57,626 nucleotides of DNA from Methanomicrobia archaeon JdFR-19 (lineage in GTDB: Archaea; Halobacteriota; Methanosarcinia; DSM-18856; Methermicoccaceae): positions 1-57,626 of the forward strand of contig MTMG01000004.1 in NCBI GenBank assembly GCA_002010075.1, read 5' to 3'. The position numbers and the translations under genes are program-made. Position 1 is the stretch's first letter, and each line of letters starts with the position of its first letter. Shown here piece by piece: positions 1-57,626 of the stretch. The notes beneath the pieces are model-generated. The model was not told the origin of the DNA and searched no databases. It was given only the letters and a program-made list of their open reading frames with translations.

Positions 1-1614
1 GTCATCATCACTCTTCATTGTTATTGTTCTCGAGCTGACACTCGATATCTTCATCATTCCATATCTGTCTCCACTCTTCACCTCATCATAGTCCTCAGAT
101 ATCTGGAACAGACCTTGGAGGAAAACAACATTGGTCTCGGTTCCTCTGAAAACTGCTCCCACTCTTGCAAGTATGACTGGCAAGTCCTCAACACCACCAA
201 CATCCTTTCTGTAGATGTATGTATCGCCACTCGAGACGAAGTCTGAGTCTACGACCTCTCCATCCTTCTTCAGCTCAAGCCAGACTCTATTGCCTTCGAG
301 GTCAATCTCTCTTGCAAACAGTTCATAGCCTTCTTCAAGTTGTATAGATGCTCCTGCGTACAACGTTCTCTTTTCATCCGAGTCTATGAGGACCTGATGG
401 AGCTGTCCCTTACTCAGTGTGTTAACATTTCCAGTACCTGCAGGTTGGTCGTTGTAACCTGCAAAGTACTTCTTTGCAAGGAATCCTATCACATAGTACT
501 TGCCCCATGGTGAATATTCATAATTCACGAGGTCTCGGGATGTTGTATATATGACATCTCCTTCGTTGACGACCCTATCGGTGGCATCTATATTCCTGAA
601 GGTTATACTTTCAGAGCCAACACCACCATCGATATCATAGTAGAACCATCCAAAACTCAATGGAGTCCATGTGTATGTTGTAGATGATTGTCCTTCAACC
701 CATATCGTATTACCAGTATAGTATGTTTTTGGTTTCACCTCCCAAAGCCAGGTGTAGGTTGATGAAAGAGAGTCAACCTCTGCTTCAACTGTAACATTAT
801 ATGTGCCAACATCACCAGTGTAGGATGATGGAGGTGAAAATTGGACTGTGCCATTTGTTGTGGTTGTCTGCACAAGTGTGCCATTTATGAACCAACTAAC
901 ATCTGATAACTGGTCAACATCAACAGAAAAAACGACAGATTCATCTTCAACCGTTATAACCGGTGAAGAGGGTCTTGGATTTGACAGTACTGGTTGTGTT
1001 ATTACAGCTATATCCCAACTAACTGAGTCTGAACCATTTGCATTAGACACAGTAGCTGTCAGAGTATAATCGCCTACCGAACTTGCATTGAATGTGTATG
1101 TATCCCACACATCTACAGACACTGAACGGGTTAAACTATCAATAATACTGCCGTTTAGTCTGAGGACCCAACTAACATTCACATCTTGGTCTGCTTTTAT
1201 CTTAAAGTCCTCGCTTTGAGATAACTGTAAGGTGATTGAGGTTGAGGTGGGGTCATATGTGAGGGTGGGTGAAGCAGGAACAACACTCCACGTCCAAGTA
1301 TAAGAATCTGTGCCGTTGTTTGTTACCATAACGGTTACATTATATGTTCCGGGACTCGATGTATAAGTAGATGAAGGGGAATAACTCAGCGTGGTGTTTG
1401 TGAGATTCGAACTCGTACTGACTGATGTACCATCAATATACCAAGTCGCATTTGCACTCTCGTTTGCACCAACGCTTAAGTCAATCTGAAATGTTATTGA
1501 CTCGCCAGCATTTGTTTGAGGATTTGAACTCGGAACTGGATTACTTAGAGTGGGGATTCCGCCTGCAACCCCCATACATAGGACGAGCAACAATACAAAC
1601 AAATATCTTTTCAT
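1..1614 (-). CDS. S-layer family surface protein, N-terminal part (runs off window)
   Basis: The frame is open from the ATG at 1612-1614 to the window edge (538 codons), so the C-terminus is missing. Residues 1 to about 20 form a signal peptide (MKRYLFVLLLVLC). Three Ig/PKD-like repeats follow at roughly 20-105, 110-200 and 205-295; each contains a tryptophan motif such as WYIDGT, WVLRLNG or WFINGT, and the linkers are rich in Ser, Thr and Asn. From about residue 305 the sequence resembles the Methanosarcina S-layer domain (DUF1608 type), with stretches such as FAREIDLEGNRVWLELKKDG and GTETNVVFLQGLFQ. I infer an exported, probably glycosylated cell-envelope protein. Its ATG overlaps the purP stop (ATGA), so it is last in the pyrH-purP run. 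Envelope role is confident; whether it is the main S-layer subunit is not shown. Confidence 0.85.
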   Translation of the reverse strand, partial: MKRYLFVLLLVLCMGVAGGIPTLSNPVPSSNPQTNAGESITFQIDLSVGANESANATWYIDGTSVSTSSNLTNTTLSYSPSSTYTSSPGTYNVTVMVTNNGTDSYTWTWSVVPASPTLTYDPTSTSITLQLSQSEDFKIKADQDVNVSWVLRLNGSIIDSLTRSVSVDVWDTYTFNASSVGDYTLTATVSNANGSDSVSWDIAVITQPVLSNPRPSSPVITVEDESVVFSVDVDQLSDVSWFINGTLVQTTTTNGTVQFSPPSSYTGDVGTYNVTVEAEVDSLSSTYTWLWEVKPKTYYTGNTIWVEGQSSTTYTWTPLSFGWFYYDIDGGVGSESITFRNIDATDRVVNEGDVIYTTSRDLVNYEYSPWGKYYVIGFLAKKYFAGYNDQPAGTGNVNTLSKGQLHQVLIDSDEKRTLYAGASIQLEEGYELFAREIDLEGNRVWLELKKDGEVVDSDFVSSGDTYIYRKDVGGVEDLPVILARVGAVFRGTETNVVFLQGLFQISEDYDEVKSGDRYGMMKISSVSSRTITMKSDDD

Positions 1615-2693
1615 GAGAGCACCTCGCTCAATTTATCCTTCTCAATACCTCTTTTTATCTCTATCGCTATTCTCCTCCCTGTTGAGAGTTTTTCGCTTAT
1701 GAGGTCTGAATAGGGAGAACCAGATATGAACGGATTCGTTCCAGCTACTATTCTCGCTGAAACTTCAAAAACCTTGAATTCAAGATTGTCTGTGCATATC
1801 GTCTCAAGCGAGAAAGGCCCTATCATGCCACCAAACAATTCAAAAGACTTCTCTACCACTGCTTCACCTATCTCAAATACCTTTGGCAAGAGAGATTCCC
1901 TTATGACAACGGGAATGTTGCCAGTCACCACATATGTGATGGGGACACCCAAAGATTCTATTTCAGATGGTGTGCCAAGTTTGTATATCTCATCTACGTT
2001 GCTTTCTATTCTCCGATCTATGCTAAGCAATTCAAGTGTGCCTTTGCTGAGTTTATATCCTTCCTCTGTGATAGGAGAGTAAAAGTAATGAAGATAGAAC
2101 CTCGTTCCCAATACGAACTCCTGGATTGTATAGTCTTCTGTATCAAGTCTCGATAACTTCTCTCTTAACTCCTTTGCATCCTTTGCAACAAAAAATCCTC
2201 TTCCTCCCTTAGCCCCCCAAAGCTTTACTATGACTGGCCTATCAACCTCTTCTACACTATCATAATGCCTGGGTGTGGAGACGCCAGCCTCTTCAAGCCA
2301 TTTTCTTTCCTATCTCCTATCTGCTTCCCACTCGAGTACATGTCTGTTTCCGAATGTAGGAACTTTTATGGACAGAAAGTTCTGGGCTCCAACATACTCC
2401 ACCATAGAGCCATGTGGTATGATTATGGCATTTTCAGATAACAGGAAGTCTTCCAAATCCATTAACTCCATATAAGAATCCACTTCCACTATTCTATCTG
2501 GCTTTCCAAGTGGGAAGGCATCATAAAACTTAGATCTTCCTTTCAAACAAATTCCCATCGTTTTAAGTCCTTCTTTTCTTGCTCCATTGAATATCTGTAA
2601 ACTCGAGTGGGAGCATAATGTGCATACCGTTATCTTATTAACATCATAGCTCTCGAGTATTTTCTCAAGCTCAGACTTTGTTAACATATTCAT
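1611..2693 (-). CDS. purP: PurP: formate-dependent FAICAR synthetase, with in-frame TAG
   Basis: ATP-grasp enzyme that makes formylaminoimidazole-carboxamide ribotide from AICAR, formate and ATP in archaeal purine synthesis. The N-terminal half has the family look (TVCTLCSHSSLQIFNGAR, then IIPHGSMVEYVG); the C-terminal half carries GRGFFVAKD, EFVLGTRFYLHYFYSP and GMIGPFS. Codon 128 is TAG (2310-2312), between EADRR and ERKWLEEAG. The frame is otherwise open and homologous on both sides, giving about 360 residues, the usual length. The site is not a catalytic position of the family, so a decoded residue there should be tolerated. The start ATG at 2693 overlaps the pyrH stop (ATGA), and the TGA end overlaps the S-layer gene start. 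A conventional gene caller would split it into two fragments. Confidence 0.9.
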
Positions 2694-3367
2694 CTCACCG
2701 CAACCGTACCAACAAACGTACCAACCTTTTCCCCATTTATGATTCTTGCAAGGTTTTCTGGTTTTCTTCCATCTGCAATAACCATACTTATACTTGACCT
2801 CTCTGCAATCTTCACACCAACAGGATCAAAAGGACCTTTTGACCCGGCTTTGAGCTCTGTTTCAGTTACTATATCTAAAAGCTCTTTATACGTGAGACTG
2901 TCAAACTTTCTCGCATCAGGGTACATTTCAGGGTCTTTCTCATATACACCATCGGTCGATGTAAGGGAAACCAAAAGGTCAGCCTTTACGTAATCCGCAA
3001 GAATTGCTGAGACTGCATCTGTTGTATATCCCGGGGAGACTCCACCCATCACAACTACCTTCCCTGTCAGCGAAGCCAGTCTTGCACCCTCGTAGTCTTC
3101 TGGTGGAACAGGATATGCACAATCACCAAGAGCAGATATCAACAAACGGGCATGGATTCTTGTGATTTCTATTCCAATCCTATCACACACTCCTTCACTT
3201 GCGCCCAGACTTCGAGCCATCTGAATGTATTCTCTTGCAGTCTTGCCACCGCCCACCACCACAAACAACTCATGCTCATCTTTCAGCATTTCAATTACTT
3301 CAGCATATTTTTTAAAAATCTCCCACGAGCTAAACACAGAGCCTCCAATTGAGACCACGACAAGCAT
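2690..3367 (-). CDS. pyrH: Archaeal UMP kinase
   Basis: Amino-acid-kinase-fold enzyme of 225 residues, the usual archaeal length, phosphorylating UMP to UDP in pyrimidine nucleotide synthesis. Visible motifs are the N-terminal VVSIGGSVF, the glycine-rich VVVGGGKTAREY, VVMGGVSPGYTTDAVSA in the middle, and TSTDGVYEKDPEMYPDA near residue 140, which belongs to the nucleotide-binding part. GSKGPFDPVG near residue 175 is also family-typical. It heads a run with purP and the S-layer gene, linked by an ATGA overlap, and pairs pyrimidine and purine nucleotide functions. Confidence 0.92.
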   Translation of the reverse strand: MLVVVSIGGSVFSSWEIFKKYAEVIEMLKDEHELFVVVGGGKTAREYIQMARSLGASEGVCDRIGIEITRIHARLLISALGDCAYPVPPEDYEGARLASLTGKVVVMGGVSPGYTTDAVSAILADYVKADLLVSLTSTDGVYEKDPEMYPDARKFDSLTYKELLDIVTETELKAGSKGPFDPVGVKIAERSSISMVIADGRKPENLARIINGEKVGTFVGTVAVR

Positions 3368-3388
3368 AAAAGGAAAAGAGTTATACTA

Positions 3389-5377: not shown

Positions 5378-5386
5378 CTATAAAAA

Positions 5387-6241
5387 TCACCCTCTATCAA
5401 GAAGGAGGTTGAGGATCTTATCCGAGGGGTCTATGCCAACACTGTATAACCCTCTAACCGAAGGCGTTGCATTCACCTCTAACACATATATTCCCTCTGA
5501 GTCATAGATGATATCAATACCGCCAAACTCAATCCCAACAGCTTCTCTTGCCTTCAATGAGATGTCCACCAACTCATCATCAACACCAAAAGGATGGGGT
5601 GAGGCCCCCTGTGAAAGATTCGATATCCAGTTATTTGATGGTATTCTCCGTACCGCGCCCAAAACTTCTTTACCCACAACAAATACTCTCACATCACCTT
5701 TTCCACTCCCGACAAACTTCTGAAGATACAAAACTCCTCTCTGTTTCAATATGCTTTCAAGCAAGTTCCTGTCAACGGGAGGTCGAAATCTAAGGATGCC
5801 TTTTCCTTTATATCCATAGATGGGTTTGACAACAGCATCACCACATTCCTCTATGAATTCTATTGCCTCATTTGTATCTTGCGTTAGAAGGGTTTCGGGC
5901 ACTGGCACCCCATGAGACAGAAGAAGAGAGGTGGTGAGGTACTTGTTTGCACATACAAGTATGGAGTCGAGGGGGTTGATTACTGGGATATCACTCGACA
6001 TTTCCTTTAATCTCTCAAATCTGAAAGAAACACCCTCTGTACCTAGCTCAACACCCCCAACATCTCTTATAATAGCCATGTCTATTGGGTAAGTCGGGGA
6101 AGATTTTTTTTCTCGACCGATGTGAGCTGAAAACTCAAGAGGATTTATGTAGACGGAGGTGTGACCCTTCCGCCTAATAGACTTTGAGAGCAATTCCACT
6201 GTTGTATCAACATTTGGACTCACGATTCCTATTCTCTTCAT
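5387..6241 (-). CDS. mptN: RimK-family ATP-grasp ligase, probably tetrahydromethanopterin glutamate ligase
   Basis: ATP-grasp ligase of 284 residues. It has the RimK/MptN layout: N-terminal MKRIGIVSPNVDTT, a mid-region NPLDSILVCANKYLTTSLL, the ATP-grasp lysine in VVKPIYGYKGKGI, DVRVFVVG, and the metal-binding IYVLEVNATPSVRGL. In methanogens the close relative MptN adds a glutamate to tetrahydromethanopterin; CofF (F420) and LysX are alternatives. I favour MptN on overall likeness and length, but substrate is inferred. ATG at 6241 is chosen because GAGGTGG lies just upstream; an in-frame GTG at 6259 lacks a ribosome site. Confidence 0.72.
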   Translation of the reverse strand: MKRIGIVSPNVDTTVELLSKSIRRKGHTSVYINPLEFSAHIGREKKSSPTYPIDMAIIRDVGGVELGTEGVSFRFERLKEMSSDIPVINPLDSILVCANKYLTTSLLLSHGVPVPETLLTQDTNEAIEFIEECGDAVVKPIYGYKGKGILRFRPPVDRNLLESILKQRGVLYLQKFVGSGKGDVRVFVVGKEVLGAVRRIPSNNWISNLSQGASPHPFGVDDELVDISLKAREAVGIEFGGIDIIYDSEGIYVLEVNATPSVRGLYSVGIDPSDKILNLLLDRG

Positions 6242-6881
6242 GCAACCACCTCTATACACACGTGGGGAGGTCTACCACTTTTTCCACAGCATCCACGATG
6301 ATACCATCTGCAGTTGCAACTATCCCTTTTTTTACATTCTTCAGCTCAGAATCCACACAATCTGACAGCTTTACTTCTCCTTTCATCCCTCTTGACTTTA
6401 GCCCCCTTCTTATATACCCTGCAAGCTCTCCACTCTTGGATATCTTCTCATCCAAAATAAAATACGTATACTCTGGCTTAACATAACCAATAAAGTCCAG
6501 TATCAGATTAACAGATTTTTTCGATGATTCTGTGAGTTTATAACTTCTGAAAACCCCTTTTATATCTCTAAGAAATCCATCATCACATAAAAAAAGATGT
6601 TCTCCTGTTATAAGGTGTTCAACGGTTATTATCACATTATAACCATCTATCCACAAGATCTCCCCACCAACTTCATCACATCCTACTGTTTTACGCCTCC
6701 TCGCTTCCACAGTAGACGTTGAATGGACAACCCTCGAAAGTATGTATCTCTACTGATTATGAAGGCGATGATGGTCAGACACGAATTTCACAGCATATCT
6801 CTTAGGATACCCCCTATCAAGCAAGAATCTCAATTCTTCTATGGGCTTTCTTAATTCTGGAGGGACGTTCTCACACTACAT
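6207..6881 (-). CDS. DUF434 family protein with three TAG codons
   Basis: Conserved archaeal protein of unknown function (DUF434): an N-terminal helical part (ELRKPIEELRFLLDRGYPKRY) followed by a nucleotide-binding-like part with WIDGYNVIITVEH, typical of the family. The first TAG is codon 2 (6876-6878), directly after ATG. The second (6750-6752, codon 44) sits between LHNQ and RYILSRVV. The third (6252-6254) follows LPTCV, where the family would end; read as sense it adds about 14 residues to a TGA at 6207. The start is supported by a TATA-like TTATTTATAA about 25 bases upstream on the minus strand, suggesting a leaderless message beginning ATG-TAG. If TAG terminates, the gene would be 6252-6710 from a GTG and would lack its conserved N-terminus. 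The end coordinate is the less certain one. Confidence 0.68.
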
Positions 6882-6898
6882 AAATCATCATAAGTAAA

Positions 6899-6911
6899 AG
6901 TTATAAATAAT
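6899..6911. promoter_or_regulatory. Shared TATA element between DUF434 gene and PUA gene
   Basis: GTTATAAATAATG lies between two divergent genes. On the minus strand it reads as TATTTATAAC about 25 bases before the DUF434 ATG, a leaderless spacing. On the plus strand it precedes the PUA gene by about 50 bases, which would leave a short leader. Confidence 0.5.
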
Positions 6912-6959
6912 GATAATAGATAGTTTTGTTGGATTTGTATACTTGCGAGCTTGAGAAAT

Positions 6960-7448
6960 ATGGACGAAGACGAGCGACATAATAAAGCTCTGAAGAAGGT
7001 TAGGATGGTTGCTGATTATCAGTTTGGGAGAGGTTCAGGGAGAGTTCTCTTTCCACATAATGTGGATTTTACATTTTCTTCCACTGGAAGGGTCAGGCAG
7101 ATAAAATTGTCTGGAGAACATGTAGCTACACTGAGGGCAAAGGATGGACTCTTGGTACTTGGTATGCGGGGCGGGGAGATGTTGAAATCATTTCACAGAC
7201 CAATGAGACATAGAGTCGTGTTATCAGAAGAGGCAGTGCCCTTTGTAAGAGAGGGTAGGAGTGCGTTTGCGAAGTTTGTTGTTTCTTGTGATAAAGAAAT
7301 AAGAGGCAGAGATGAGGTGCTGGTTGTTGATGAGAGTGATGAACTTTTGGCGGTTGGTGAGGCGATGTTGTGTGCGAGAGAGATGATGGAAGCTATGAAA
7401 GGTGTCGCTGTAAAAATAAGGCATGGTGGAGGATTATATGAAGATTGA
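6960..7448 (+). CDS. PUA-domain RNA-binding protein
   Basis: 162-residue protein related to the C-terminal part of archaeosine tRNA-guanine transglycosylases and stand-alone archaeal PUA proteins. VRMVADYQFGRGSGRVLFP at about 15-33 is the characteristic pre-PUA stretch. The PUA fold runs from about 70 to 150 (LKSFHRPMRHRVVLSEEAVP, FAKFVVSCDKEIRGRDEVLVV, LLAVGEAML). It presumably binds structured RNA or modified tRNA; target unknown. ATG at 6960 fits the homologous N-terminus; a TTG at 6951 is possible. It overlaps the next gene by 11 bases. Confidence 0.75.
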   Translation: MDEDERHNKALKKVRMVADYQFGRGSGRVLFPHNVDFTFSSTGRVRQIKLSGEHVATLRAKDGLLVLGMRGGEMLKSFHRPMRHRVVLSEEAVPFVREGRSAFAKFVVSCDKEIRGRDEVLVVDESDELLAVGEAMLCAREMMEAMKGVAVKIRHGGGLYED

Positions 7449-8025
7449 AGTATATTGTCCAACATGCAATGAAACAAAAATACACAAAGTGCTAAAAACG
7501 AACAAAATGTGGGTCGTTAGGTGTATTGAATGTTCCACCACCCACAAGGTAGAAAATCCATTGCAAGGAGCAGAGGAGAACGTGGATGTGAGGGTGGTTG
7601 TCAGTAAGGGTGAGAACTCATATGTGACCCACGTACCTCTCGGAAAGGAAGAGATTTTGCTTGTGGGAGAAGAATTCGTTGTGGACGATTCCGATGAGGT
7701 AAGTCTCGTTGAGATAACGTCGCTCGAGGGTGAACATGGAAGAATGAAATAGGCGAAAGTGTATGAGATCGAGACGATATGGGCAAGAGCAATAGACAGA
7801 GTGTCTCTGAAGGTCTCGATTAACAAAGGAAAAATAACTGAGCCATATTCATTCGATGTTAGCGGGGAGGAGACCTTCTCTGTTGGTGGAGTCTACTCTT
7901 TTGGTCCAACGTCATTCAGGATTAAAAAAATAAAGTTGAGAGACGGAAGATTTTTGAGTAGAGAAGGAGAGAGTGTAAAGGCGTATCGGATTAAGAGAGT
8001 TTTTGCGAGTTCTGTCGGCTGGTAA
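7438..8025 (+). CDS. COG1326-type archaeal zinc-finger protein with in-frame TAG
   Basis: Small archaeal protein of unknown function. The N-terminus has a zinc ribbon (CPTCNETKIH, then VRCIECSTTHKVE). The second half (ETIWARAIDRVSLKVSINKG, then FRIKKIKLRDGRFL and KAYRIKRVFA) matches the C-terminal half of the same family. The halves are joined in one frame by TAG at 7750-7752 (codon 105), between GRMK and AKVYEIE. Total length is about 195 residues, normal for the family, and it ends in TAA. GGAGG six bases before ATG 7438 decides the start, inside the 3' end of the PUA gene. Confidence 0.78.
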
Positions 8026-8041
8026 ACGTGGATGTGATGAG

Positions 8042-8677
8042 ATGGACAAGGAAGATATGATTAGGTTGCTTGAGAGGAGGGGAATATCCAAACGTGTCCT
8101 TGAAGCAATGAAAAAAGTACCGAGACATTTGTTTGTACCGCCTGATGTTAGGAAGTTTGCATACGAAGATCGCCCTCTGCCGATTGGAGAAGGGCAGACT
8201 ATTTCAGCCCCTCACATGGTTGCAATGATGTGTGAGTATCTCGACCTACAAAAAGGGCATAAGGTGCTGGAAATTGGAGGTGGATGCGGGTATCATGCTG
8301 CAGTTATGGCTGAGCTCGTTGGTAAGGAAGGTAAAGTGATAACAGTTGAGAGAATTGAAAGTCTTGCAGATAGAGCAAAACAAAACCTCAAATTGACTGG
8401 CTATGATGATGTGGTTGAAGTGGTGGTAGGAGATGGGACACTTGGATATCCGCCAGAGGCACCATATGACAGAATTAGTGTGGCGTGTGCAGCACCTTCT
8501 GTACCGCCTCCGCTAAAGGAACAGTTAAAGATAAAAGGAAAGATGGTAATACCTGTTGGAAGTCATTCTCAGATACTGTATCTTGTAAAGAAAAAGGGAG
8601 AGGATGGGTTTGATATGGAAAAACTGTGTGAAGTGGTATTTGTACCACTCATAGGAAAACACGGATTTCATATGTGA
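8042..8677 (+). CDS. pcm: Protein-L-isoaspartate O-methyltransferase
   Basis: SAM-dependent repair enzyme that methylates isoaspartyl residues in damaged proteins; 211 residues, the usual size. Family motifs are VPRHLFVPPDVRKFAYEDRP, the GEGQTISAPHMVA substrate loop, the SAM site VLEIGGGCGYHAAVMA (the common GTGSGY form is GGGCGY here), VVEVVVGDGTLG and CAAPSVPPPL. ATG at 8042 is preceded by a weak GATGTGATGAG. It follows the zinc-finger gene by 16 bases and precedes birA by about 20, so these are probably one transcript. Confidence 0.93.
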   Translation: MDKEDMIRLLERRGISKRVLEAMKKVPRHLFVPPDVRKFAYEDRPLPIGEGQTISAPHMVAMMCEYLDLQKGHKVLEIGGGCGYHAAVMAELVGKEGKVITVERIESLADRAKQNLKLTGYDDVVEVVVGDGTLGYPPEAPYDRISVACAAPSVPPPLKEQLKIKGKMVIPVGSHSQILYLVKKKGEDGFDMEKLCEVVFVPLIGKHGFHM

Positions 8678-8698
8678 TTTCATATGTGAGGTGAGGCT

Positions 8699-9682
8699 AT
8701 GACAACAGCGATCTGTCTGTTATCGCTTCTCTATGGCTATGATAGAGAATTTGTTTCTGGAGAGATGTTGAGTAGACATCTGGGTATTTCTAGGGCAACC
8801 GTAAGCAAGTATGTTAAAATTCTGAAAGAATAGGGATACTCGATAGAGTCGTCCCCAAAACTCGGGTATAGGTTGAAAGATCATTCGAACATCCTCACGA
8901 AAAAGAACGTTTTAAAGGGTCTGAGTACAACATTTATCGGGAAGAAGGTTTTCCATTTCTTTGATGTGACGTCGACAAATTGGATTGCAAAACAACTGGC
9001 GTCTCAATTCAGGGATGTTCATGGGGCAATTGTAGTATCTGAAACTCAAAGTGGAGGGAAAGGAAGGTACAATAGACCATGGATGTCATTCATGGGGGGG
9101 CTCTGGTTTTCCATCATTCTGAGGCCATCTATGTCCCCTTCAGATTCTCCCCATCTAACACATGCTGCTGGAATTGCAGTGACAAAATGTATTAGAACAT
9201 ATGGACTTGATGCAAGAATAAAATGGCCAAACGACGTGCTAATTCATGGTAAAAAAGTATGTGGAATTCTCACAGAAATCAGTACAACACTTGACATGCT
9301 CGATTATGCTGTGGTCGGGATAGGTGTTAATGTGAATATTGACACCTCTAGCTTTCCAGAAGACATACGAGAGAATGCCACTGCCATGAGACATGAACTT
9401 GGTAAGCCAATTGATAGAGTAAAACTTCTCCAAGAAATTCTGGTTGAGTTTGAAGAAACATACAAGAAATTAGAAAAAGGATACAACATACTGGATGAGT
9501 GGAAGAGTTTGTCTGACACAATTGGACGTGAGGTTGTTGTAAAAACTGTTCATAAGACAATAGAGGGTGTTGCAACTGGTATTGACTCAAAGGGGGCTTT
9601 AGTAGTAAAAACTGACAAAGGCATGGAGAGAATCTTGTCAGGAGAGTGCATATATGCAAGACACTATGCAAGACGTTCATGA
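8699..9682 (+). CDS. birA: BirA biotin-protein ligase with N-terminal HTH and in-frame TAG
   Basis: Biotin-[acetyl-CoA-carboxylase] ligase of about 327 residues. Residues 1-60 are the winged-helix domain (LSRHLGISRATVSKYVKILKE), interrupted by TAG at 8831-8833 (codon 45), after which GYSIESSPKLGYRL completes the wing as in bacterial and archaeal BirA. The catalytic domain follows with SETQSGGKGRYNRPW (biotinyl-AMP loop; the usual GRGR is GKGRY here), IKWPNDVLIHGKKVCGIL and AVVGIGVNVN. GAGGTGAGG lies seven bases before the ATG. The HTH suggests biotin-responsive repression. The stop TGA overlaps the prs stop on the other strand in the palindrome TCATGA. Confidence 0.88.
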
Positions 9683-11595: not shown

Positions 11596-11650
11596 ACATA
11601 AATACCTCTATCACTAAAAATCTTTTTCGTAATATTTGATGTAGATATCG

Positions 11651-11658
11651 TTATATAT
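11651..11658 (+). promoter_or_regulatory. TATA box of apgM
   Basis: TTATATAT lies about 26 bases before the apgM ATG with no ribosome site between, consistent with a leaderless transcript. Confidence 0.55.
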
Positions 11659-11679
11659 GCACCAACTCATCTCATTCCG

Positions 11680-12837
11680 ATGAAATACGCTGTGCTGATA
11701 GGGGATGGAATGGGGGACTATCCCATACCTGAACTGGGTGGTACTCCTCTGGAAATCGCATACACCCCCAACATGGATGAGATTGCAAGAAAGAGTGTGT
11801 GTGGAGTTGCTCAAACGATACCCAATGGAATGCCGAAGGGAAGTGATGTTGCAAACATGTCCATTTTTGGATATGACCCCAAGGAATACTATACAGGCAG
11901 GGGCCCAATTGAGGCAGCGGGTCTTGGAGTACCTGTGAAAAGAGGGGATGTCGCATTCAGATGTAATCTTATCACCGTCGAGGGGGGGATAATCACAGAT
12001 TACAGTGCAGGACACATCAACACACACGATGCTGAGCCCCTCATAAAAGCCTTGGATTAGAGTATCCCATACGTAAAATTCTATGTCGGAGTGAGTTATA
12101 GACATATCATGGTAGCTAACTTTGGAGAGAGTGCAACCTGTTTTCCTCCACATGATGTTATCGGAGAGAGGATTGAAGATAAACTCCCAACCGGAAAAGA
12201 TGCTGATAGATTAATCGAGATAATAAACAAATCATCAGAGATAATAGAAAGAGCAAAGAGAGAGTACAATATACCCACAAATGCTACTCATGCATGGCCT
12301 TGGGGTTCTGGAAAAGCCATAGAACTCCAACCTTATCCAGAGAGATATGGGCTTTATGGATGCGTTATCTCTGCTGTAAGCCTTATAAAAGGGTTGGGTA
12401 GACTTGCAGGACTTGAGACCCCAAAGGTAGAGGGGGCAACTGGATTCTTGGACACAAATTATAAAGGAAAAGCAGAATCGGCATTGGAATGCCTTGAGAG
12501 AGAGGATATTGCAATAGTGCATGTTGAGGCACCTGATGAAGCTTCACACCTTGGGGATCTGGAGGCAAAGATAAAGGCAATAGAAAACTTCGACAAGTTT
12601 GTTGTTGGTACTGTGCTCAATGGTATTTCTGCATTTGATGATGTTGCAATGGTTGTTATCACAGACCACTACACCCCAGTGAGTCTGAAGATACACACAA
12701 GCGAGCCCGTCCCTTTCGCCATAATGAAGGATGATAAAGATGACGTTAAGGAGTTCTGTGAAAAGGAATGTGCTAAAGGAAAGCTTGGTAAAATCAATGC
12801 ATGGAATATAATGCCATACTTAATGAGAAAGAGCTGA
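11680..12837 (+). CDS. apgM: Archaeal cofactor-independent phosphoglycerate mutase with in-frame TAG
   Basis: Interconverts 3- and 2-phosphoglycerate in glycolysis/gluconeogenesis; alkaline-phosphatase superfamily. About 385 residues, the normal ApgM length. Metal and phosphate motifs: GDGMGD at the N-terminus, [14 protein letters not shown] near residue 60, GRGPIEAAG, then VEAPDEASH and VVITDHYTP in the last third. TAG at 12058-12060 is codon 127, between IKALD and [15 protein letters not shown]. Homologous sequence continues directly on the other side in the same frame, and no start with a ribosome site lies there. The site falls in a variable helix/loop before the conserved GVSYRH. Ends in TGA. 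Confidence 0.9.
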
Positions 12838-12874: not shown

Positions 12875-12893
12875 ACATTAAAATGATGTGCTG

Positions 12894-18692: not shown

Positions 18693-20444
18693 TCACCTCT
18701 TCTCCATCACCTCATATTTTCTGACAGACACTGCAGGACCATAGGTTGATGCTACCATCTCATGCGAACCCATCAAAGCAGTTCCAACGCCATAGACACG
18801 ACCCCCATGAAAGATAACCTCATCCCCAACCCTTATCGATGGGCATGCGTTCAGAATACCCTTTGCCATGATAGAGCCGTGAGGTATGAAATCCTCTATC
18901 TCCACACAGTATCTGTTGAGTTCAAGTAGTTTTCTTCCCATAGTAAGCGATATTGAGAGCTTCCCAGACTCTGGGACAGTAGACAGTATGTGGGCGTCAC
19001 CATCGAACAGCTGAAGTTTTGGATATCTTCCGACCGCTCTCGGTTTATCAATCAACTCCAGCATATCCTCTCCAAACTGGTACTTGAACATCGCGTTTAT
19101 ACATTCAATTACCTAATTTGCTTTTTTCTTTGGATTTGCAATACTTTCAAGAACATTTCTAAGCTCTGAAAGAGATTCTTTAGATGTTGCATTTCCCTTG
19201 GATGTATAGATAAATTCATCCCCCAGTATCTCTTCGGCTCTTTTGCATCCCTCTGCAAAACCTCCTTCTGCATGCACAACAACGTGTTTGAAGTCACCCC
19301 TTCTCGTGATGTCAGCAACACACTGAGAGAGCCACTGCAATTCACATTCACTCCAAACACCACTTATGGGTATTTCATAATGAGAAGCAGGATATACCAT
19401 CTCAAGCTCTCTTGGAACCACACCGAGTGGAGAAGTCAGAATAAACTCACTAACCTCGAAATCCTCTGTGATACTTCTAAAAATTCGATGAGTTCTCGAC
19501 AATGAATATGGTTTCTTTGCTGAGCATGGCAAAAATAGAGCAATTTCTCCTTTTGGCTCATAGCGTGTTTTGAGACGTTCAACAAATCTCCTTATTTCCA
19601 CTCTTTTTATGGTTCTATCTGTCCCTGCAAAAATCTTTGTTTTGGAAAATACATGAACGAACGGCTCTATTTCATCATAAAACTCATCATGAGTGCTCAA
19701 AAATACATTATTCCAGTCAGAAAATGCAGTTTTTCCCTCAACATATTCTCTCAATTTTCCTCTTACCAATTTGTACCTGATGATTTCCATCTCTTTTTTG
19801 AGAACAAACAAATTATGTAGATACAATAACCTTGTTCTGTTTTCACACCCTCTACTCAGAGCAATACATGCTTCACACCCGCACATGATATCTGGACTGA
19901 CATCGGAGAGTGGAAGCTCCTCATCTCTCGTGAAGTATATGCCATCAAGAGCGTGGATGATACAGGCGGTATCATCAACCAAATCGATGCCTGAGAATAC
20001 TATGGTAGCAAGATTGGATGGCTTTGCAATGCCAGGCAAATATATCGGAACATTTGGCTTTTTTCTGAGAGACAACACAGTTTTCAACAGAATCGATGGG
20101 TCCCTTTCCACACTCCTAACAGAACCAATTACAAACATACCACATTCAGTTTGAGGGAGAGTAGGATTAGATGGACAGATGACTTTGCCAGCAATAGATT
20201 TGTTCTAACAATCCAATTCTACATCACCATTTTTGAAATCGGAAGGGGGACATTTGTGAGGAAATATCACGATTTCGTGTTTTTTCTTGGGATATTTTGG
20301 ATTCCAGGCACTCCCGCACTCGAATATGTGCGCTTTTGATAGAAAGTTTCCAACAACAATCGTAGGGGTATCACAACTCATTCCCTCGAATTTCAGAATG
20401 CCAGCCCTTGCAAGATACTCCCTCTTTTTGATGTCAAATAACAT
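18693..20444 (-). CDS. arcS: Archaeosine synthase ArcS, full length across two TAG codons
   Basis: Converts preQ0 at position 15 of archaeal tRNA toward archaeosine. One frame of 583 residues holds all three expected parts. The N-terminal TGT-like part starts FDIKKREYLARAGILKFEG. The core carries the ArcS motif LFLPCSAKKPYSLSRTH and PLGVVPRELE. The C-terminal PUA part includes RYPKLQLFDGDAHILSTVPE and VGTALMGSHEMVAS. The first TAG (20205-20207, codon 80) follows VELDC; the second (19113-19115, codon 444) follows PKKKAN. The same frame runs on through the PUA domain to TGA at 18693. Read with TAG as stop, the locus would be three fragments. Many ArcS proteins are single chains with exactly this order, which supports read-through. 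Confidence 0.87.
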
Positions 20445-24251: not shown

Positions 24252-25124
24252 TTATGTTATCACCTCACACCCACCATCCAATACTATCAACGAATGCTCA
24301 GCCTGAGATACCAGACCACCACTCACTTCCTTAAGCACAGGATACCCTCTCACGATACCGAGCTTCTGAAGATTAGAGAGGGCAAACTCAAGCTTTTCAG
24401 GGGGAAGCCATCTTTTTGCATATGGTAGAGTCTCATATTTTTTGAGCTCTTTCTGTAGTTTTCTCACCATGGGCAACCTCGCCATACTATTCGAGACTGT
24501 CTGAAATATTTCAACCTTCTCACCATCCACAACCTTCCCCACGCCATCTGTTGCAAAAGGCTCTATCGCTATAACAACGCCCTCCAGAAGTTCAACACCT
24601 TGAGGTACTTTTCTATTTGGTATGGGGGGCGGGGCATGAGGTATGTATCTCATGAGACCATGCCCGGTCAGATTATATATCGGTCTGAACCCTTCCGATT
24701 TTATTGTTGTCTCTATAACATCCCCAATCTCGGAAGTGTTTATACCCGCTTCTATAATTTCTATCGCTGCCTTCAAAGCTTCTTCTGAAGCTCTAACAAG
24801 CTCGGAATTTCCTGAAAGGTCTATCGTGATAGCAGAATCTGCTATATAACCATCAACATGAACTCCTATGTCCAGCTTTACCATATCATCTTCAAAGACT
24901 CTTTTATCATTTCTCTGCGGTGTTGAGTGGGCTGCCTCCTCATTACGGGCAATATTACATGGAAATGCAATTCCTCCACCCATCTCGATGATTTTTTTCT
25001 CCACAAACTCTGCAACTTTTAGAATGCTTTCCTCTTTTTTTATCATCGGAATTGCTTCATTTTTTACTTCTTTCAAAATCTCGCCCGCCTTCCTGTACTT
25101 TTCATAGACCTCCTCATCATACAT
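24252..25124 (-). CDS. map: Methionine aminopeptidase, type II
   Basis: Removes N-terminal methionine; 290 residues, archaeal type II with the inserted helical subdomain. Metal ligands lie in VKLDIGVHVDGYIADSAIT (Asp), NLTGHGLMRYIPHAPPP (His), VVIAIEPFA (Glu) and SQAEHSLIV (Glu). The ATG at 25124 overlaps the egsA TGA (TGATG); GGGGTGAT is upstream. Confidence 0.95.
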   Translation of the reverse strand: MYDEEVYEKYRKAGEILKEVKNEAIPMIKKEESILKVAEFVEKKIIEMGGGIAFPCNIARNEEAAHSTPQRNDKRVFEDDMVKLDIGVHVDGYIADSAITIDLSGNSELVRASEEALKAAIEIIEAGINTSEIGDVIETTIKSEGFRPIYNLTGHGLMRYIPHAPPPIPNRKVPQGVELLEGVVIAIEPFATDGVGKVVDGEKVEIFQTVSNSMARLPMVRKLQKELKKYETLPYAKRWLPPEKLEFALSNLQKLGIVRGYPVLKEVSGGLVSQAEHSLIVLDGGCEVIT

Positions 25125-26170
25125 CACTCTATCACCCCAGTCTTGAGTGCAAGTGTCATTGCAGCCTCCTCTGTGATACCTCCATCTATGATGGTGTACC
25201 TCTCAGGACGTATTTCTTTAGCCTTTATCAGAGCCTCTATTATATACTCCTCTTTCACCCCAAGTTCCTTTGCGTTTGTGGGTGCCCCAATCGTTTCAAG
25301 AGCCATCTTTATTGTCATCCAGTCTCCGCCATGCAGATACATCATCATGATGCTCCCCACACCACACTGTTCTCCATGTAATGCAGGATTCGGTGCAATA
25401 ATGTCAAGTGCATGACTGAACTTATGTTCTGAGCCACTTGCTGGACGTGAGCTACCTGCTATGCTCATTGCGACACCACTCGATACAAGAGCCTTCATAA
25501 CCACACGAACAGACTCTTCAAGATTCGGTTTTATACTTTCAGCTGAGTTGAGAATAATAGTGGCAGTCATCTCAGAAAGTGCAGATGCATATTCACTGTA
25601 CGGCTCATTTTTCAGTCTGTGAGCGAGTCTCCAGTCAAGAACCGCAGTCTTATTTGATATTATGTCCCCACATCCCGCCGCTAAAAACCTGTAAGGGGCA
25701 CTAACGATTATTTCAGTGTCTGCCACAACTCCAATTGGTGGCTGTGCTTCGATAGAGATGCTTCCCTTCTTGTTTCTGAGTGAAGCTCTTGATGAAACTA
25801 TACCATCATGAGATGCAACTGTTGGTACGCTTATAAAGGGGCATCCTACACGAACTGATGCCAATTTCGTAACATCTATAACGCTCCCTCCTCCAACAGC
25901 TACCATCAATCTTACATCTCCAACCTCCCCCACCATCTCCCCTACCTTCTTAACATCTCCTTCACATGCCCTCTCTATCAACACAAAGTGTACGGGAATT
26001 CCCTTATCTTCCAAACACTCGATAGTCCTATTACCGGCTACCTTCAAAGTCATTTTATCTGCAACAACCAACACAGAATACTCATCAGATGTGGTCAGCA
26101 CTCTTTTGCAAACGTCTGGAATCTCATCTATAACCCCTCTTCCAATGAGGATTTCTCTTGGTAGCTACAT
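25124..26170 (-). CDS. egsA: sn-glycerol-1-phosphate dehydrogenase, TAG as second codon
   Basis: Makes the archaeal glycerophosphate backbone of ether lipids from dihydroxyacetone phosphate. The core shows MVAVGGGSVIDVTKLA, SVPTVASHDGIVSSRASL, GCGDIISNKTAVLDWRLA, GSEHKFSHALD and HGEQCGVGSI with metal-binding Asp/His. The family N-terminus (LPREILIGRGVIDEIPDVC) is encoded in frame upstream of the GTG at 26101 and reaches back to ATG 26168-26170. The codon between that ATG and CTA-CCA is TAG (26165-26167). So the protein would begin Met-X-Leu-Pro-Arg, where homologs commonly have Met-x-Leu-Pro-Arg. With this start it is 348 residues, the normal length. Starting at GTG 26101 would delete a conserved beta strand. 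Confidence 0.85.
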
Positions 26171-26203
26171 CCTCTTTGGTCCTTTCTCGCTCTCGACAAA
26201 ATT

Positions 26204-26213
26204 CAAATATAAT
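26204..26213. promoter_or_regulatory. Shared TATA region between egsA and DUF63 gene
   Basis: CAAATATAAT is about 25 bases before ATG 26232 on the plus strand and, as ATTATATTTG, about 37 bases before the egsA ATG on the minus strand. Confidence 0.45.
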
Positions 26214-28627: not shown

Positions 28628-29443
28628 ATGACTGTTAGACGGGTTGGCATAACCTCAAAGTGGGATAAAGACGCCCTTTCTGTTGCAAAAAATCTGTGTG
28701 AGTATCTGAAAGGAAAAGGTATAGAAGTGGTAATAGAGGACGATGTAGCCCCACGGATTGGAATGAAGGGAATACCCCTTGGAAAAATGGATGTTGACCT
28801 TTTGCTAAGTATTGGTGGGGATGGTACCCTACTCCGAGCCCTTCAGAAACTCACTAACAAGAGAATACCGGTTCTTGGAATAAATACGGGCACACTTGGA
28901 TTTCTCACAGATGTTCCAAGAGATAGGGCAGTGGAAGTGATTGATGAACTTCTCGATGGCTTTGAGACAATAGAAAGATCAAGAATCTCAGTTTCCATAA
29001 ACAACACACCGTTGCCACCTGCTATGAATGAAGTTGTTATGATAACGGCATATCCGGCCAAGATGCTGAGATACTGCATATATGTAGATGGATTCAGACT
29101 GGATGAACTGGGGGCAGATGGGGTTGTGATTGCGACACCAACTGGCTCTACAGCATATGCGATGAGTGCAGGAGGTCCGATCGTTGACCCCAACGTTCAG
29201 GGAATTGTTATTGTTCCACTTGCTCCATTCAAGCTCTCTGCAAGACCATAGGTTGTCTCAATGGAAAGCACAATAGCAGTTGAACTGCTCATAAATAAAG
29301 AAGCTCTTGTTGTGGTTGATGGTCAATACGCAAAAAGCATACGAATGGGAGAGAGGCTCGTTGTAACAAAATATGATGTCCCAGCTCGGTTTGTGAAGAT
29401 AGGCGAAAATGCTTTTTATGAAAAAGTGAAGAGGTTGAGATGA
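28628..29443 (+). CDS. nadK: NAD kinase with in-frame TAG
   Basis: Phosphorylates NAD to NADP. About 271 residues. Motifs: SIGGDGTLLRALQ (GGDG), GINTGTLGFLTDVP, MNEVVMI, ADGVVIATPTGSTAYAMSAGGPIV and IVIVPLAPFKLSARP. TAG at 29249-29251 (codon 208) comes right after SARP, where relatives continue with a hydrophobic residue and VV; the next codons here read VVSMEST. The last 63 residues contain the expected C-terminal strands (ALVVVDGQYAKSI). Ends in TGA overlapping the next ATG (ATGA). Confidence 0.9.
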
Positions 29444-34263: not shown

Positions 34264-34737
34264 TTATGTTCTACCCTTCCCATGTTCTAATTCGAGAAGA
34301 GCCTTTTTCAACCAAATACCATACGAAAATCCACCCAAAGAATGTTTTGATATTACCCTGTGACAAGGAATCATAATCAGATGTCTGTTCCTTTTCAATG
34401 CCTGTCCTACTGCCCGTGCACTTGTCCCAACTTTTTCTGCCAGCTCACTATACATTATGGTCTCACCCCACCCAACCTTCAAAAGCTCACAATACACCTC
34501 CCTCTGGAACTCTGTGTAGTTATCGAGTGAGAGTCTGAATCTGAAAGAGGTTTTTTTCCCTGAAGCATACCTATCAATTGCATGTACCACCCTTTTCAAG
34601 GTTGGACTCTCAATTGAGGGTCTGTTTGTTATTTTATCTAAATAAACAACATGTGTTATGTATCCCTCTACCTCCCCTATCTCAAGTGTCCCTTGCATGA
34701 AAGGTACTCTTACAGTCATCACCGCATTACTCTCCAT
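34264..34737 (-). CDS. ogt: Methylated-DNA--cysteine S-methyltransferase
   Basis: 157-residue DNA repair protein that takes the methyl group from O6-methylguanine. The acceptor cysteine is in IMIPCHRVISKHSLGGFSYG; ARAVGQALKRNRHL holds the recognition helix and arginine finger. Start is ambiguous: ATG 34737 (inside the preceding gene) or ATG 34719, which forms TGATG with the preceding stop. Confidence 0.93.
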   Translation of the reverse strand: MESNAVMTVRVPFMQGTLEIGEVEGYITHVVYLDKITNRPSIESPTLKRVVHAIDRYASGKKTSFRFRLSLDNYTEFQREVYCELLKVGWGETIMYSELAEKVGTSARAVGQALKRNRHLIMIPCHRVISKHSLGGFSYGIWLKKALLELEHGKGRT

Positions 34738-35396
34738 CTGAGAATGACTCCCTCCCCAAGTCTCTCACTTCCAATGAGTTCAAGTGAGATGCCTTTCACA
34801 AACCCTTCACCATCAACTGGGGTCGGTGCCTTTTCCCCACCTATAATGACATTCCCAACATACGTTATGTACTCATCCACAAGCCCCTCATAAAAAAGCG
34901 ACCAATTAAGAGTTCCTCCTCCCTCAACCATGAGCCTTCTAATCCCCCTGTCCCAGAGGATTTCCATCAGCTTCCTCAGGTCAACCCTGCTGTCTCCTGT
35001 AACTACGACCTCAACATCTCTCAAACCTTTCAGCTCTTCCACTCTATGAGAAGGTGCACGAGTGGAAACTGCTACCAACCGCTTACCTTCGCCCTTACGA
35101 AGGATCTCAGCATTGGTTGGTGTTCTCGCAAAACTATCCACCACAACTCTCAATGGATTCTCAGGCAAGCCACTGGAAACTCGTTTCTTTCTTCTTTCTT
35201 CCGATTTTACGGTGAGAGAAGGATCATCAGATAAAACTGTTCCAATCCCAACCATTATGGCATCCACACTTGCCCTCAACGCATCTACCCTATCAAAATC
35301 CTATTTTCCAGATATCCTGAACTGCCTTCTCAACTTAGATGCTATCTTGCCATCTGCACTCATTGCCAAGTTTACTACGACGAAAGGTTTTTTCAT
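34719..35396 (-). CDS. Riboflavin-pathway pyrimidine reductase (archaeal RIB7 type) with in-frame TAG
   Basis: 2,5-diamino-6-ribosylamino-pyrimidinone phosphate reductase, about 225 residues. N-terminal KKPFVVVNLAMSADGKIASK is followed by QFRISGK, then TAG (35301-35303, codon 32), then DFDRVDALRASVDAIMVGIG. Relatives commonly have Glu or Asp at the TAG position in the ISxEED-like stretch. Later motifs are NPLRVVVDSFARTP, MVEGGGTLNWSLF and YVGNVIIGGEKAPT. Without the first 39 codons the protein would lack its NADPH-binding first strand. Ends in TGA. Confidence 0.87.
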
Positions 35397-41780: not shown

Positions 41781-42170
41781 TCAACCCTATCCCAGTTTTA
41801 ATAAAAGTTCCCTTGCAGAATATGCAATGTGGTGTGCTATTTCAATAGCTCTCCTCTCTCCTATTGACTCTGGATACCTGACTGTCCTTCCAAGCATTGC
41901 ACTTGCCATCTACTCATCGATGCCGAACAGTTCCCCCCTCTCAATCACAATATCCAATCCCCCATATGCACTAGGAAGTGATGATATGCTCTCTCTGAGA
42001 AAGTCTGAGATGTTTCTCAAAGTTGGCTCTTTGCTTGTTGTGGAAGAGATATTGATGTAAAGGACTTTTGCCACATATGTTGGTTCAACCTCACACACAA
42101 CTACCGAGCAAACCATCAGATAATGCCCATCGATTGCATGCCTTCCTGATATATCACATACGACTATCAT
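41781..42170 (-). CDS. DUF2209 family protein with two TAG codons
   Basis: Archaeal protein of unknown function with an RNase H-like beginning: IVVCDISGRHAIDGHYLMVCSVVV. The first TAG (41910-41912, codon 87) lies between ELFGIDE and MASAMLGRTVRYPE, and the homologous C-terminal helix (RRAIEIAHHIAYSARELLLKLG) continues in frame. A second TAG (41787-41789) follows KLG, then one Gly codon and TGA at 41781, so nothing is lost if both are decoded. ATGA overlap with the preceding secreted-protein gene. If the second TAG terminates, the end is 41787. Confidence 0.77.
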
Positions 42171-50520: not shown

Positions 50521-50949
50521 ATGGACAACAAAGTGATTCTAACAAGTGAGAGGATAGAGATAAGTGATGTTCTGAATCGATTATCCAAGAGCGAGGAATG
50601 TGGAGCAGTGGTGATGTTCATCGGAACAGTTAGGGGACTTGATGAGGGAAAAAAAATACACGAACTCAATATCGAGATAGATGTTGATGTTGCACTCGAA
50701 ACTCTGCAGAAATTGAGACAGGATACGATAGAGGAATATGGCATACAAGATTTGGTGGTAGTGCATAGATACGGTACTCTGATGGTTGGAGATACAATAG
50801 TGGTGATAGTCGTTGCATCTGCTCATAGAAAGGAAAGTTTTGATGCTTGTGAGTATTTTATTGACGAGCTTAAACGCATCGTTCCCGTATGGAAGCTCGA
50901 AAAGAGAGAGAATGGTATGCACTGGGTGGGGTCAGAATGGCTGAAATGA
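50521..50949 (+). CDS. moaE: MoaE, large subunit of molybdopterin synthase
   Basis: 142 residues: GAVVMFIGTVRGLDEGKKI, VVVHRYGTLMVGD, VASAHRKESFDACEYFID and VPVWKLEKRENGMHWV are MoaE motifs, including the Lys residues of the active site. With MoaD it inserts the dithiolene sulfurs. Overlaps moaC by 13 bases. Confidence 0.95.
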   Translation: MDNKVILTSERIEISDVLNRLSKSEECGAVVMFIGTVRGLDEGKKIHELNIEIDVDVALETLQKLRQDTIEEYGIQDLVVVHRYGTLMVGDTIVVIVVASAHRKESFDACEYFIDELKRIVPVWKLEKRENGMHWVGSEWLK

Positions 50950-51374
50950 TAGATGTTAGTAGGAAAGTAGATGTAAAGAGGATTGCAAAGGCATGTGGAA
51001 TTATAAAACTAAGAAAAGAAACTGTGAAAGAGATTCTGGAAGGCAAAGTGAAAAAAGGCGATGTCATATCTGTTTCTAAGGTTGCAGCCATACAAGCTGT
51101 GAAGAATACTCCTCAACTTCTCCCTCTGTGCCATCCGATACCTATTACGGATGTGAGGGTTGATATTAAGGTTGAGGATGATACTGTTTAGTGTGAGTGT
51201 GAGGTCGGAACCATTTACAAGACAGGTGTTGAGATGGAAGCTCTGTGCGGTGTAAGTGTCGCACTTCTCTGTATTTGGGATATGGTAAAATATCTCGAGA
51301 AAGACGAGAGAGGACAGTACCCTTCAACCAAGATAACAGATCTCAAAGTAATTTCAAAAGAGGTGTAGAAGTGA
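50937..51374 (+). CDS. moaC: Cyclic pyranopterin monophosphate synthase MoaC with two TAG codons
   Basis: 145 residues, normal MoaC length. [18 protein letters not shown] start, [20 protein letters not shown] at 51189-51191 (codon 85) after EDDTV, then [20 protein letters not shown] with the catalytic Lys-Thr-Gly-Val-Glu-Met-Glu-Ala stretch, then [19 protein letters not shown] fragment ending at the first TAG would lack the active site. A second TAG (51366-51368) is followed by AAG-TGA. That TGA overlaps the moeA start as GTGA, the standard coupling seen elsewhere here, suggesting that the TGA is the true end. Confidence 0.9.
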
Positions 51375-52547: not shown

Positions 52548-53117
52548 TTATGCCTTTCCACTGGATTCTCCTAAGACCATGGCTGTTGCTATCAAATGTG
52601 CAACTCTTATTGGTTCTGGAATGCTCGAATGTAATGATGTTCTCTTAACAAGTTTGGCGGCATACGATGGGGTTATGCCAGCACATTGGATATACACCTC
52701 GCTTGGGCCACCTGTATCTACGGGTGTCAGTGGACCTGCCTTCTTTATCATCGAAAATCTCAACTCAGAATCAACAACATTCTCAAGTGCTTTTTTTATC
52801 GCATCAAAGTCTGGTAAACTTCTGGTGATGACCACAACTGGTATTGAGGTATTCTCATACAGCATTTGTATATCCACAACATTAAAACCACCAAATGTCA
52901 CACCATCAAGCAGTATTACCCTCAACTGAGAATAGTACTTTGACGAAAGAATCATTTGGGATATTTTGGGTGTAGCATCCAGCCCGTCCTTTGTTATCTA
53001 TGTTTTCATAATGCCGTCTATCCATTCGCCCCCTCTGAATACAGTGCCAACCACCAGTATCTTTTTCCCTTTTAAAGGAGAATCATCCAGACCCAATATT
53101 CTTGTTTCTGGCTTCAT
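52548..53117 (-). CDS. DUF99 family protein with in-frame TAG
   Basis: About 189 residues, archaeal family of unknown function. The N-terminal part reads MKPETRILGLDDSPLKGKK then VGTVFRGGEWIDGIMKT, then TAG (52998-53000, codon 40), then ITKDGLDATPKISQMI and the core VILLDGVTFGGFNVVDI. The parts are in one frame and in family order. ATG 53115-53117 overlaps the rpoL stop by ATGA, fixing the start before the TAG. A fragment starting after the TAG would lose that coupling. Ends in TAA. Confidence 0.82.
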
Positions 53118-57185: not shown

Positions 57186-57286
57186 GTTCATCCAAATAGA
57201 GCACCAAGTCCCTCTATTCCACTTTCCTCCTCTTCTTCTTTTTCTTTCTCTTTCTTTTCTTCTGGTTCTTCCTTTTCTTCTTTTTC
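57186..57286 (-). repeat. 101-bp perfect direct repeat, copy 1 (in rpl12)
   Basis: Identical base for base to 57526-57626, offset 340. It covers the shared acidic stalk tail plus three bases after each stop. Confidence 0.95.
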
Positions 57287-57511
57287 TTCTACTTCCTCTT
57301 TCTCACTCACCACCGTAGGCGCTGCTGGTGCAAGAGAAACTCCCTTCGATATCGCCTCATCGATGTCAACATCCTCAAGTGCTGCTACAAGAGCCTTCAC
57401 ACGCACAGCGTCCACATCTATACCAGCTGCCTTCATGACCTCTGAAACCGCTTCTTCTGTTATTTCTTTCTTTGCACTGTGAAGCAACAGTGCTGCATAT
57501 ATATACTCCAT
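57188..57511 (-). CDS. rpl12: 50S ribosomal protein L12 (P1), stalk
   Basis: 107 residues. [20 protein letters not shown] start, dimerisation helices to about residue 60, Ala/Pro hinge, a long Glu/Lys region and the factor-binding tail [25 protein letters not shown] precedes the ATG. It follows the rplP0 gene by 16 bases, the usual archaeal order. The last 33 codons are repeated at the end of the upstream gene. Confidence 0.96.
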
Positions 57512-57525
57512 TCCTTTTCACCTCC

Positions 57526-57626
57526 GTTCATCCAAATAGAGCACCAAGTCCCTCTATTCCACTTTCCTCCTCTTCTTCTTTTTCTTTCTCTTTCTTTTCT
57601 TCTGGTTCTTCCTTTTCTTCTTTTTC
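57526..57626 (-). repeat. 101-bp perfect direct repeat, copy 2 (upstream gene)
   Basis: Second copy, truncated by the window edge, so the true repeat may be longer. Confidence 0.95.
57528..57626 (-). CDS. rplP0: 3' end of the gene upstream of rpl12, probably 50S protein P0 (L10)
   Basis: Only the last 32 codons and TGA are in the window. They encode the same acidic tail and [12 protein letters not shown] as L12. Archaeal P0 and P1 share this C-terminal tail, and P0 sits directly upstream of L12 in the usual L11-L1-P0-L12 order, so P0 is the best reading. A tandem L12 copy cannot be excluded because the N-terminus is outside the window. Confidence 0.75.
   Translation of the reverse strand, partial: EKEEKEEPEEKKEKEKEEEEESGIEGLGALFG

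Follow-up and report, generated by a model that had tools for sequence, protein, structure and literature searches.

In-frame TAG as a probable general sense codon for pyrrolysine in an uncultured relative of the Methanosarcinales

An archaeal genetic code in which all TAG codons are translated as pyrrolysine (Pyl) was reportedly described by Kivenson and colleagues in Science in 2025. The present analysis concerns a stretch of 57,626 nucleotides from Methanomicrobia archaeon JdFR-19 (assembly GCA_002010075.1, contig MTMG01000004.1, positions 1 to 57,626; hereafter the window), in which TAG codons lie within the reading frames of conserved genes. TAG is very probably a general sense codon for pyrrolysine in this uncultured relative of the Methanosarcinales. 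The archaeal 'Pyl code' is reportedly similar in using TAG as a general sense codon in many ordinary proteins and in having a pyl gene set; unusual in the present organism are a split pyrrolysyl-tRNA synthetase (PylRS), pyl genes in three places, the lack of a match to McrA and an altered motif in archaeal release factor 1 (aRF1). A search of the open literature on a general TAG-to-Pyl code in archaea gave, among the papers listed, none on the code of this lineage.

Other systems share parts of this arrangement. In 'Candidatus Methanomethylophilus alvus', in-frame TAG was predicted in 16 ordinary genes besides the methyltransferases, and 1.6% of stops are TAG (PMC4153887, available sections). 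That organism thus appears to have a partial version of what is seen here, where TAG-bearing genes are more numerous (a third of the genome yields 70 among 376). The same sections state that TAG is still a common stop in Pyl-decoding bacteria, at 20-30%, in contrast to its probable role here as a general sense codon. Sifarchaeia, described as non-methanogenic, also have the full Pyl machinery, but 21% of their genes end in UAG according to the accessible text of PMC9723677, so that TAG does not serve them as a general sense codon. Relatives of the same class, in a family that we take to be the Methanosarcinaceae (f6 in our set; genomes G150, G092 and others), have PylS and tRNA-Pyl in common with the present genome. 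Their PylRS is fused, and only 2 and 3 genes with in-frame TAG were seen in samples of 100 kb each, whereas here the synthetase is split and such genes are many.

The first-pass annotation of the window had placed 17 in-frame TAG codons in 12 genes and held that family-typical sequence continues across them. Each position does carry TAG on the strand given, six on the plus strand and 11 read as CTA in minus-strand genes, and all 17 lie within 12 open reading frames (ORFs) that are open throughout once TAG alone counts as sense. With TAG read through, all 12 frames match a known family. Ten of the 12 were scanned against NCBIfam and ten against Pfam, which together cover all 12; nine of ten matched NCBIfam, frame 6207-6881 having no match there, and ten of ten matched Pfam. 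Thirteen TAGs are inside the family match (2310, 6750, 7750, 8831, 12058, 19113, 20205, 26165, 29249, 35301, 41910, 51189 and 52998), TAG 51366 is the final residue of the MoaC match, and TAGs 6876, 6252 and 41787 fall outside. Our own gene caller placed 14 of these TAGs within genes; the other three, 20205, 41787 and 41910, were found in the ORF list instead.

The source genome (G000) is a 1.29-Mb draft in 27 contigs, about 90% complete, in which the window is contig C8. Genes were called in a 438-kb sample, 34% of the genome, with TAG set as sense, so that it is never a terminator in this calling. The suggestion that the use of TAG extends proteome-wide was borne out beyond the window, since 92 TAGs occur in 70 of the 376 predicted genes, about 0.76 per 1,000 codons. 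Restriction of pyrrolysine to methyltransferases was rejected on these numbers, together with the 12 known-family genes of the window. Genes in the sample end in TGA (238) or TAA (134), and four run off the end. A second gene caller gave 388 genes, 73 of them with TAG, and 96 TAGs. Downstream of TAG the coding score averages 0.16 per codon, compared to 0.19 across all genes, and it is negative in only two of 80 post-TAG runs of at least 20 codons. With TAG as sense, the run after TAG has a median of 146.5 codons, with 15 of 96 shorter than 40; in G001, a second species of the same genus, the median is 127 and 15 of 81 are short. In two relatives without PylS the runs have medians of 25 (five of seven below 40; G007) and 32.5 codons (six of 12; G016).

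Proteins of four relatives were aligned to the sample, covering 45,850 codons, and the aligned DNA contains 25 internal TAG, one TGA and three TAA. One alignment on contig C4, judged spurious, supplies one TAG, the single TGA and all TAA but one, which itself lies in an alignment gap. The corresponding TAG/TGA/TAA counts are 19/4/1 in 30,947 codons of G001, 4/12/3 in 46,256 codons of the PylS-less control G007, 2/12/9 in 38,474 codons of G092 and 0/2/1 in 7,682 codons of G150. In a 100-kb sample of G092 (loci L102-L106), calling with the standard code gives 68 genes, of which one terminates at TAG, and TAG occurs in frame in two genes. G092 may itself be leaning towards TAG as sense, yet its larger homologue-aligned sample holds only the two internal TAGs.

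Comparison of G000 with G001 rests on 117 orthologue-like pairs with a median identity of 95%. Where TAG sites could be aligned, 30 of 39 are TAG in both species; counted from G000, 30 of 34 (88%) are kept in G001, compared to 92-98% for the 20 usual residues. Synonymous and nonsynonymous codon differences number 559 and 287 after the first TAG, 302 and 158 before it, and 3606 and 1351 in TAG-free genes. These differences show that the sequence after TAG is, for the most part, translated and under selection as protein. In the window, four of the 17 sites were comparable in G001: 2310, 6252 and 6876 are TAG and 6750 is TAC. When window positions 1500-21490 were compared with G001, only 1502-7666 matched, and of 11 window TAG genes searched against the 20 largest G001 contigs, ten found no match and one a 30% match.

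These results bear on whether the internal TAGs reflect pseudogenes, assembly error or contamination. In favour, the genome is a draft, with the number of contigs and the completeness given above. On the other side, internal TAG outnumbers TGA and TAA in each of the two species, most TAG sites are common to them, and selection after TAG is purifying. The first-pass annotation had called random decay or poor sequence a bad explanation; on this evidence we find it scarcely credible, short of an error common to both assemblies.

The same annotation had pointed to the pyl genes and a tRNA with a CTA anticodon as the machinery to look for elsewhere in the genome. tRNA-Pyl (CUA), pylSn, pylSc, pylB, pylC and pylD are all present, and the protein matches of PylSn, PylSc, PylB, PylC and PylD are all above curated cut-offs. 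A pylT-pylSn-pylSc cluster lies on contig C6 at about 53.0-54.2 kb, with the tRNA upstream of the two synthetase genes; pylB and pylC adjoin each other about 45 kb away (C6, 6.2-8.3 kb), and pylD is on contig C18, where no other pyl gene is found among the genes called. The tRNA has a CTA anticodon; its predicted cloverleaf is compact, the anticodon stem having 6 bp and the D-loop 5 bases. It is the only CTA tRNA found by ARAGORN in the window and 20 sampled stretches. PylSc scores 298 bits against a cut-off of 178; PylSn of G000 is above its cut-off of 51 bits, as is that of G001 (94 bits). An McrA match (PF02249) was not found in this approximately 90% complete genome, while the control search was positive in two methanogens. 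The minus-strand neighbour of pylSc (G000:C6:54240-56006; L001:2241-3719) contains four TAG codons and resembles, by eye from its sequence, a secreted metallophosphoesterase with dockerin-like terminal repeats.

PylRS is split in both species of the genus; in G000 the PylSn frame is 160 aa long and PylSc is separate. A draw of 392 genomes from the whole phylum contained 60 that were PylSn-positive (G001 was not among the matches listed); 59 of these have frames of fused length (406-553 aa), and G000 alone has a short, separate one. In the class, PylS matches occur in 102 of 237 genomes; two belong to this genus, one to a family designated f3 and all others to f6. The order of the source genome contains one other genome, G001, and a PylSc relative at 95% identity is encoded on QMVI01000051.1. 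The best solved-structure match of PylSc is to 3dsq/2zni (286 bits), which we take to be the bacterial PylSc of Desulfitobacterium hafniense; the match to 2q7e, presumably from Methanosarcina mazei, is 192 bits. A class with separate PylSn and PylSc (sN) is described in the available part of PMC11363022, and the present synthetase is alike in this separation. We read these data as pointing to a PylRS of the split type whose history is separate from that of the Methanosarcinaceae enzyme.

The residue inserted at TAG was approached through homologues. At 24 G000 sites, a count that leaves out the one spurious site, the best homologue has Glu four times, Leu three times, Asn, Met, Arg, Ile, Cys and Lys twice each, and His, Asp, Thr, Ala and a gap once each. 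Gln is thus found at none of 24 and Leu at three; in G001 the numbers are one and two of 19, with a similar mix of residues. Where the other species does not have TAG, the partner codon is CTG, AAG (twice), TCG, CAA, TGG, GAA or GAG (twice), with TAC at 6750. Since the homologue residues are mixed, no canonical residue stands out, which fits a residue without a canonical counterpart placed at tolerant sites. A reading of TAG as Gln or Leu, as in codes 15 and 16, was rejected because homologues mostly show neither.

The more general proposal, that TAG encodes a canonical amino acid (Gln, Leu and Lys are examples) by way of a further CUA tRNA or a mischarged tRNA-Pyl, draws on two observations. 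The tRNA scan covers the sampled DNA only, and a second CTA tRNA could sit elsewhere. In addition, PylSc reads MLNIA where six relatives read M[LV]NFC. Two further residues, Asn in FTM[LV]N and Tyr in VYG, are the same in PylSc as in these relatives; they are the pyrrolysine-contacting residues. The lack of a dominant homologue residue and the mixed partner codons rule against canonical reassignment, and the presence of the Pyl biosynthesis genes and of a TAG-bearing MttB also speaks against it; we give this proposal very little credence. Given the full pyl set, we infer that the residue is most likely pyrrolysine, well ahead of any other candidate.

No sequence context for read-through had been evident in the first-pass annotation. 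In line with this, the base that follows TAG (G 33, A 33, T 13, C 13) is close to the general first-base composition. As the base before TAG, C is found in none of 92 sites. Genome-wide depletion of CTAG can explain the missing C. In the 438-kb sample, two tetranucleotides are strongly depleted, with observed/expected ratios of 0.19 for CTAG and 0.20 for GATC.

ApgM, EgsA, NAD kinase, BirA and ArcS are proteins that a cell should require constantly. The occurrence of TAG in their genes argues against a model in which pyrrolysine is inserted only when methylamines are available and the internal TAGs act as switches. Such conditional insertion is described for Acetohalobium in the portion of PMC8211752 at hand. 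Here, MttB is present, its only TAG falling in the motif GTOTDSK (TIGR02369, 699.9 bits when TAG is taken as Lys, cut-off 525), and regulation linked to methylamines is conceivable. We consider conditional insertion highly unlikely, and constitutive insertion of pyrrolysine the probable state.

How far TAG has lost its role as a stop is a separate question, and several observations weigh against reading it as a general sense codon for pyrrolysine. The evidence for that reading is at the level of sequence, and the TAG counts cover the sampled third of the genome. With standard-code calling, 36 of 386 genes (9.3%) end in TAG, a share that is not unusual beside six of 52 and ten of 52 in two PylS-less relatives. 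A scan for coding sequence on both sides of each stop separates the three codons poorly (TAG 22, TGA 14, TAA 7); we think that its TGA and TAA false positives come from adjacent genes sharing one frame. In the window, TAGs 51366 and 41787 are each one codon short of a stop, and TAG 6252 is followed by 14 codons with a coding score of -2.4; all three could be real stops. TAGs are also in mild excess among the last 20 codons before a stop, at 12 where 5.7 would be expected (p = 0.011); at other distances p is 0.16 (10 codons), 0.08 (30) and 0.34 (50). The first 30 codons are enriched as well (19 against 8.5 expected), and stops cannot account for an excess at the start. It is possible that a few residual TAG stops exist.

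The single aRF1 above cut-off in G000 (L027, G000:C4:108494-109708) was aligned with that of G001 and with 28 more; 29 other relatives had been searched, and one of them had a two-piece match that lacked a locus. Both species of the genus read YHCASEF in the YxCxxxF motif, with Ala in place of an Asp kept by all 28 relatives; the Asp is also found in the solved aRF1 4af1, and its counterpart in human eRF1 is Asp128 of YLCDNKF. Motifs of this type are tied to the reading of stop codons in the accessible sections of PMC4698671 and PMC5681627, which do not describe the exact Asp-to-Ala change. Against this, the protein keeps NIKS and the equivalents of Glu55 and Tyr125, so that loss of UAG reading is only a possibility. 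At a further 13 positions the two species depart from a residue common to 27 or all 28 of the relatives, with three more where the G001 sequence is cut off, so the Asp-to-Ala change is a lead only.

The retained main motifs of aRF1 and the slight excess of TAG near stops, including the two window TAGs one codon before a stop, would both be expected if TAG were ambiguous, read as pyrrolysine in many genes and as a stop in some. Competition between release factor and Pyl-tRNA is a model for Pyl archaea (PMC9499178 and PMC8211752, in the parts available). The runs after TAG are long in both species of the genus and short in the relatives without PylS, and the post-TAG sequence shows coding selection; both count against ambiguity, which we consider improbable. 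With respect to TAG as a general sense codon, we infer that its stop role has probably been lost.

The mechanism that we propose would run as follows. PylB, PylC and PylD would make pyrrolysine from lysine, the pathway set out in the available text of PMC8211752. The two-part PylRS, PylSn and PylSc, would charge tRNA-Pyl (anticodon CUA), which would decode TAG, and genes would end in TGA or TAA. Mutations to TAG at tolerant sites would not be lethal, because pyrrolysine is inserted, and would hence have accumulated. The change of Asp to Ala in the stop-reading motif of aRF1 may help. A more specific proposal, that reassignment was enabled by an aRF1 that does not read UAG and that the code changed independently of the neighbouring family with fused PylRS, in a lineage without detectable McrA, is tentative and on present sequence comparisons rather doubtful.

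The affected genes of the window are of varied function. A PurP-like formate--phosphoribosylaminoimidazolecarboxamide ligase (1611..2693, minus) has TAG 2310 at codon 128; NF009781 matches residues 3-360 (1.7e-167), under the curated cut-off (556.7 of 603 bits). The site is also TAG in G001, and differences in the gene number 1, 2 and 32 by codon position. The DUF434/DUF5616 protein (6207..6881, minus) has TAGs 6876, 6750 and 6252 at codons 2, 44 and 210, with PF04256 at residues 10-64 and PF18481 at residues 69-207; in G001 the first and last are TAG and the second is TAC. A CPxCG-related zinc-finger protein (7423..8025, plus) has TAG 7750 at codon 110, within PF19769 (4e-51, residues 12-195), and the homologue residue is Cys. 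In the gene for the biotin--protein ligase BirA (8699..9682, plus), TAG 8831 is codon 45, in the helix-turn-helix region. It is spanned by HTH_11 (PF08279, residues 8-58) and by the full-length BirA model NF008848 (residues 15-316); the TIGR00121 match (residues 86-318) begins downstream of it.

TAG 12058 is codon 127 of the cofactor-independent phosphoglycerate mutase gene apgM (11680..12837, plus; NF003242, 1.2e-150, residues 1-383), and TAGs 20205 and 19113 are codons 80 and 444 of the gene for the archaeosine synthase ArcS (18693..20444, minus; NF040592, 2.8e-144, residues 5-576). The glycerol-1-phosphate dehydrogenase gene egsA (25124..26206, minus) has TAG 26165 at codon 14 of the longer, TTG-start ORF, in which NF002022 covers residues 10-359 (5.8e-150), or at codon 2 of the ATG-start form; either start is possible. 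TAGs 6876 and 26165 are both codon 2 in shorter gene models, and the choice of start affects both. NAD kinase (28628..29443, plus) has TAG 29249 at codon 208; NF002984 matches residues 5-268 (8.2e-79) under its curated cut-off, and PF01513 and PF20143 match above theirs. A 2,5-diamino-6-(ribosylamino)pyrimidinone 5'-phosphate reductase (34719..35396, minus) has TAG 35301 at codon 32 (TIGR01508, 1e-71, residues 4-222).

The DUF2209 protein (41781..42170, minus; PF09974, 1.9e-33, residues 4-123) has TAGs 41910 and 41787 at codons 87 and 128, and MoaC (50889..51374, plus; NF008999, 1.2e-63, residues 18-160) has TAGs 51189 and 51366 at codons 101 and 160. In each of these two genes the last TAG (41787 and 51366) may once have been the stop, with the present stop as its back-up. 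An endonuclease dU-like protein (52548..53117, minus) has TAG 52998 at codon 40, with matches to NF001977 (2.4e-75, residues 1-188) and PF01949; the homologue residue there is Thr.

Gene catalogues made with the standard code truncate proteins of this archaeon, about one-fifth of whose sampled genes carry TAG. It would add to the natural examples of altered genetic codes, for which protein prediction must change. With a compact archaeal genome and a sister species, one can trace how a 62nd sense codon evolves. The altered codon-reading motif in aRF1, together with a PylRS unlike the type of its relatives, offers a testable idea of how UAG termination may have been given up.

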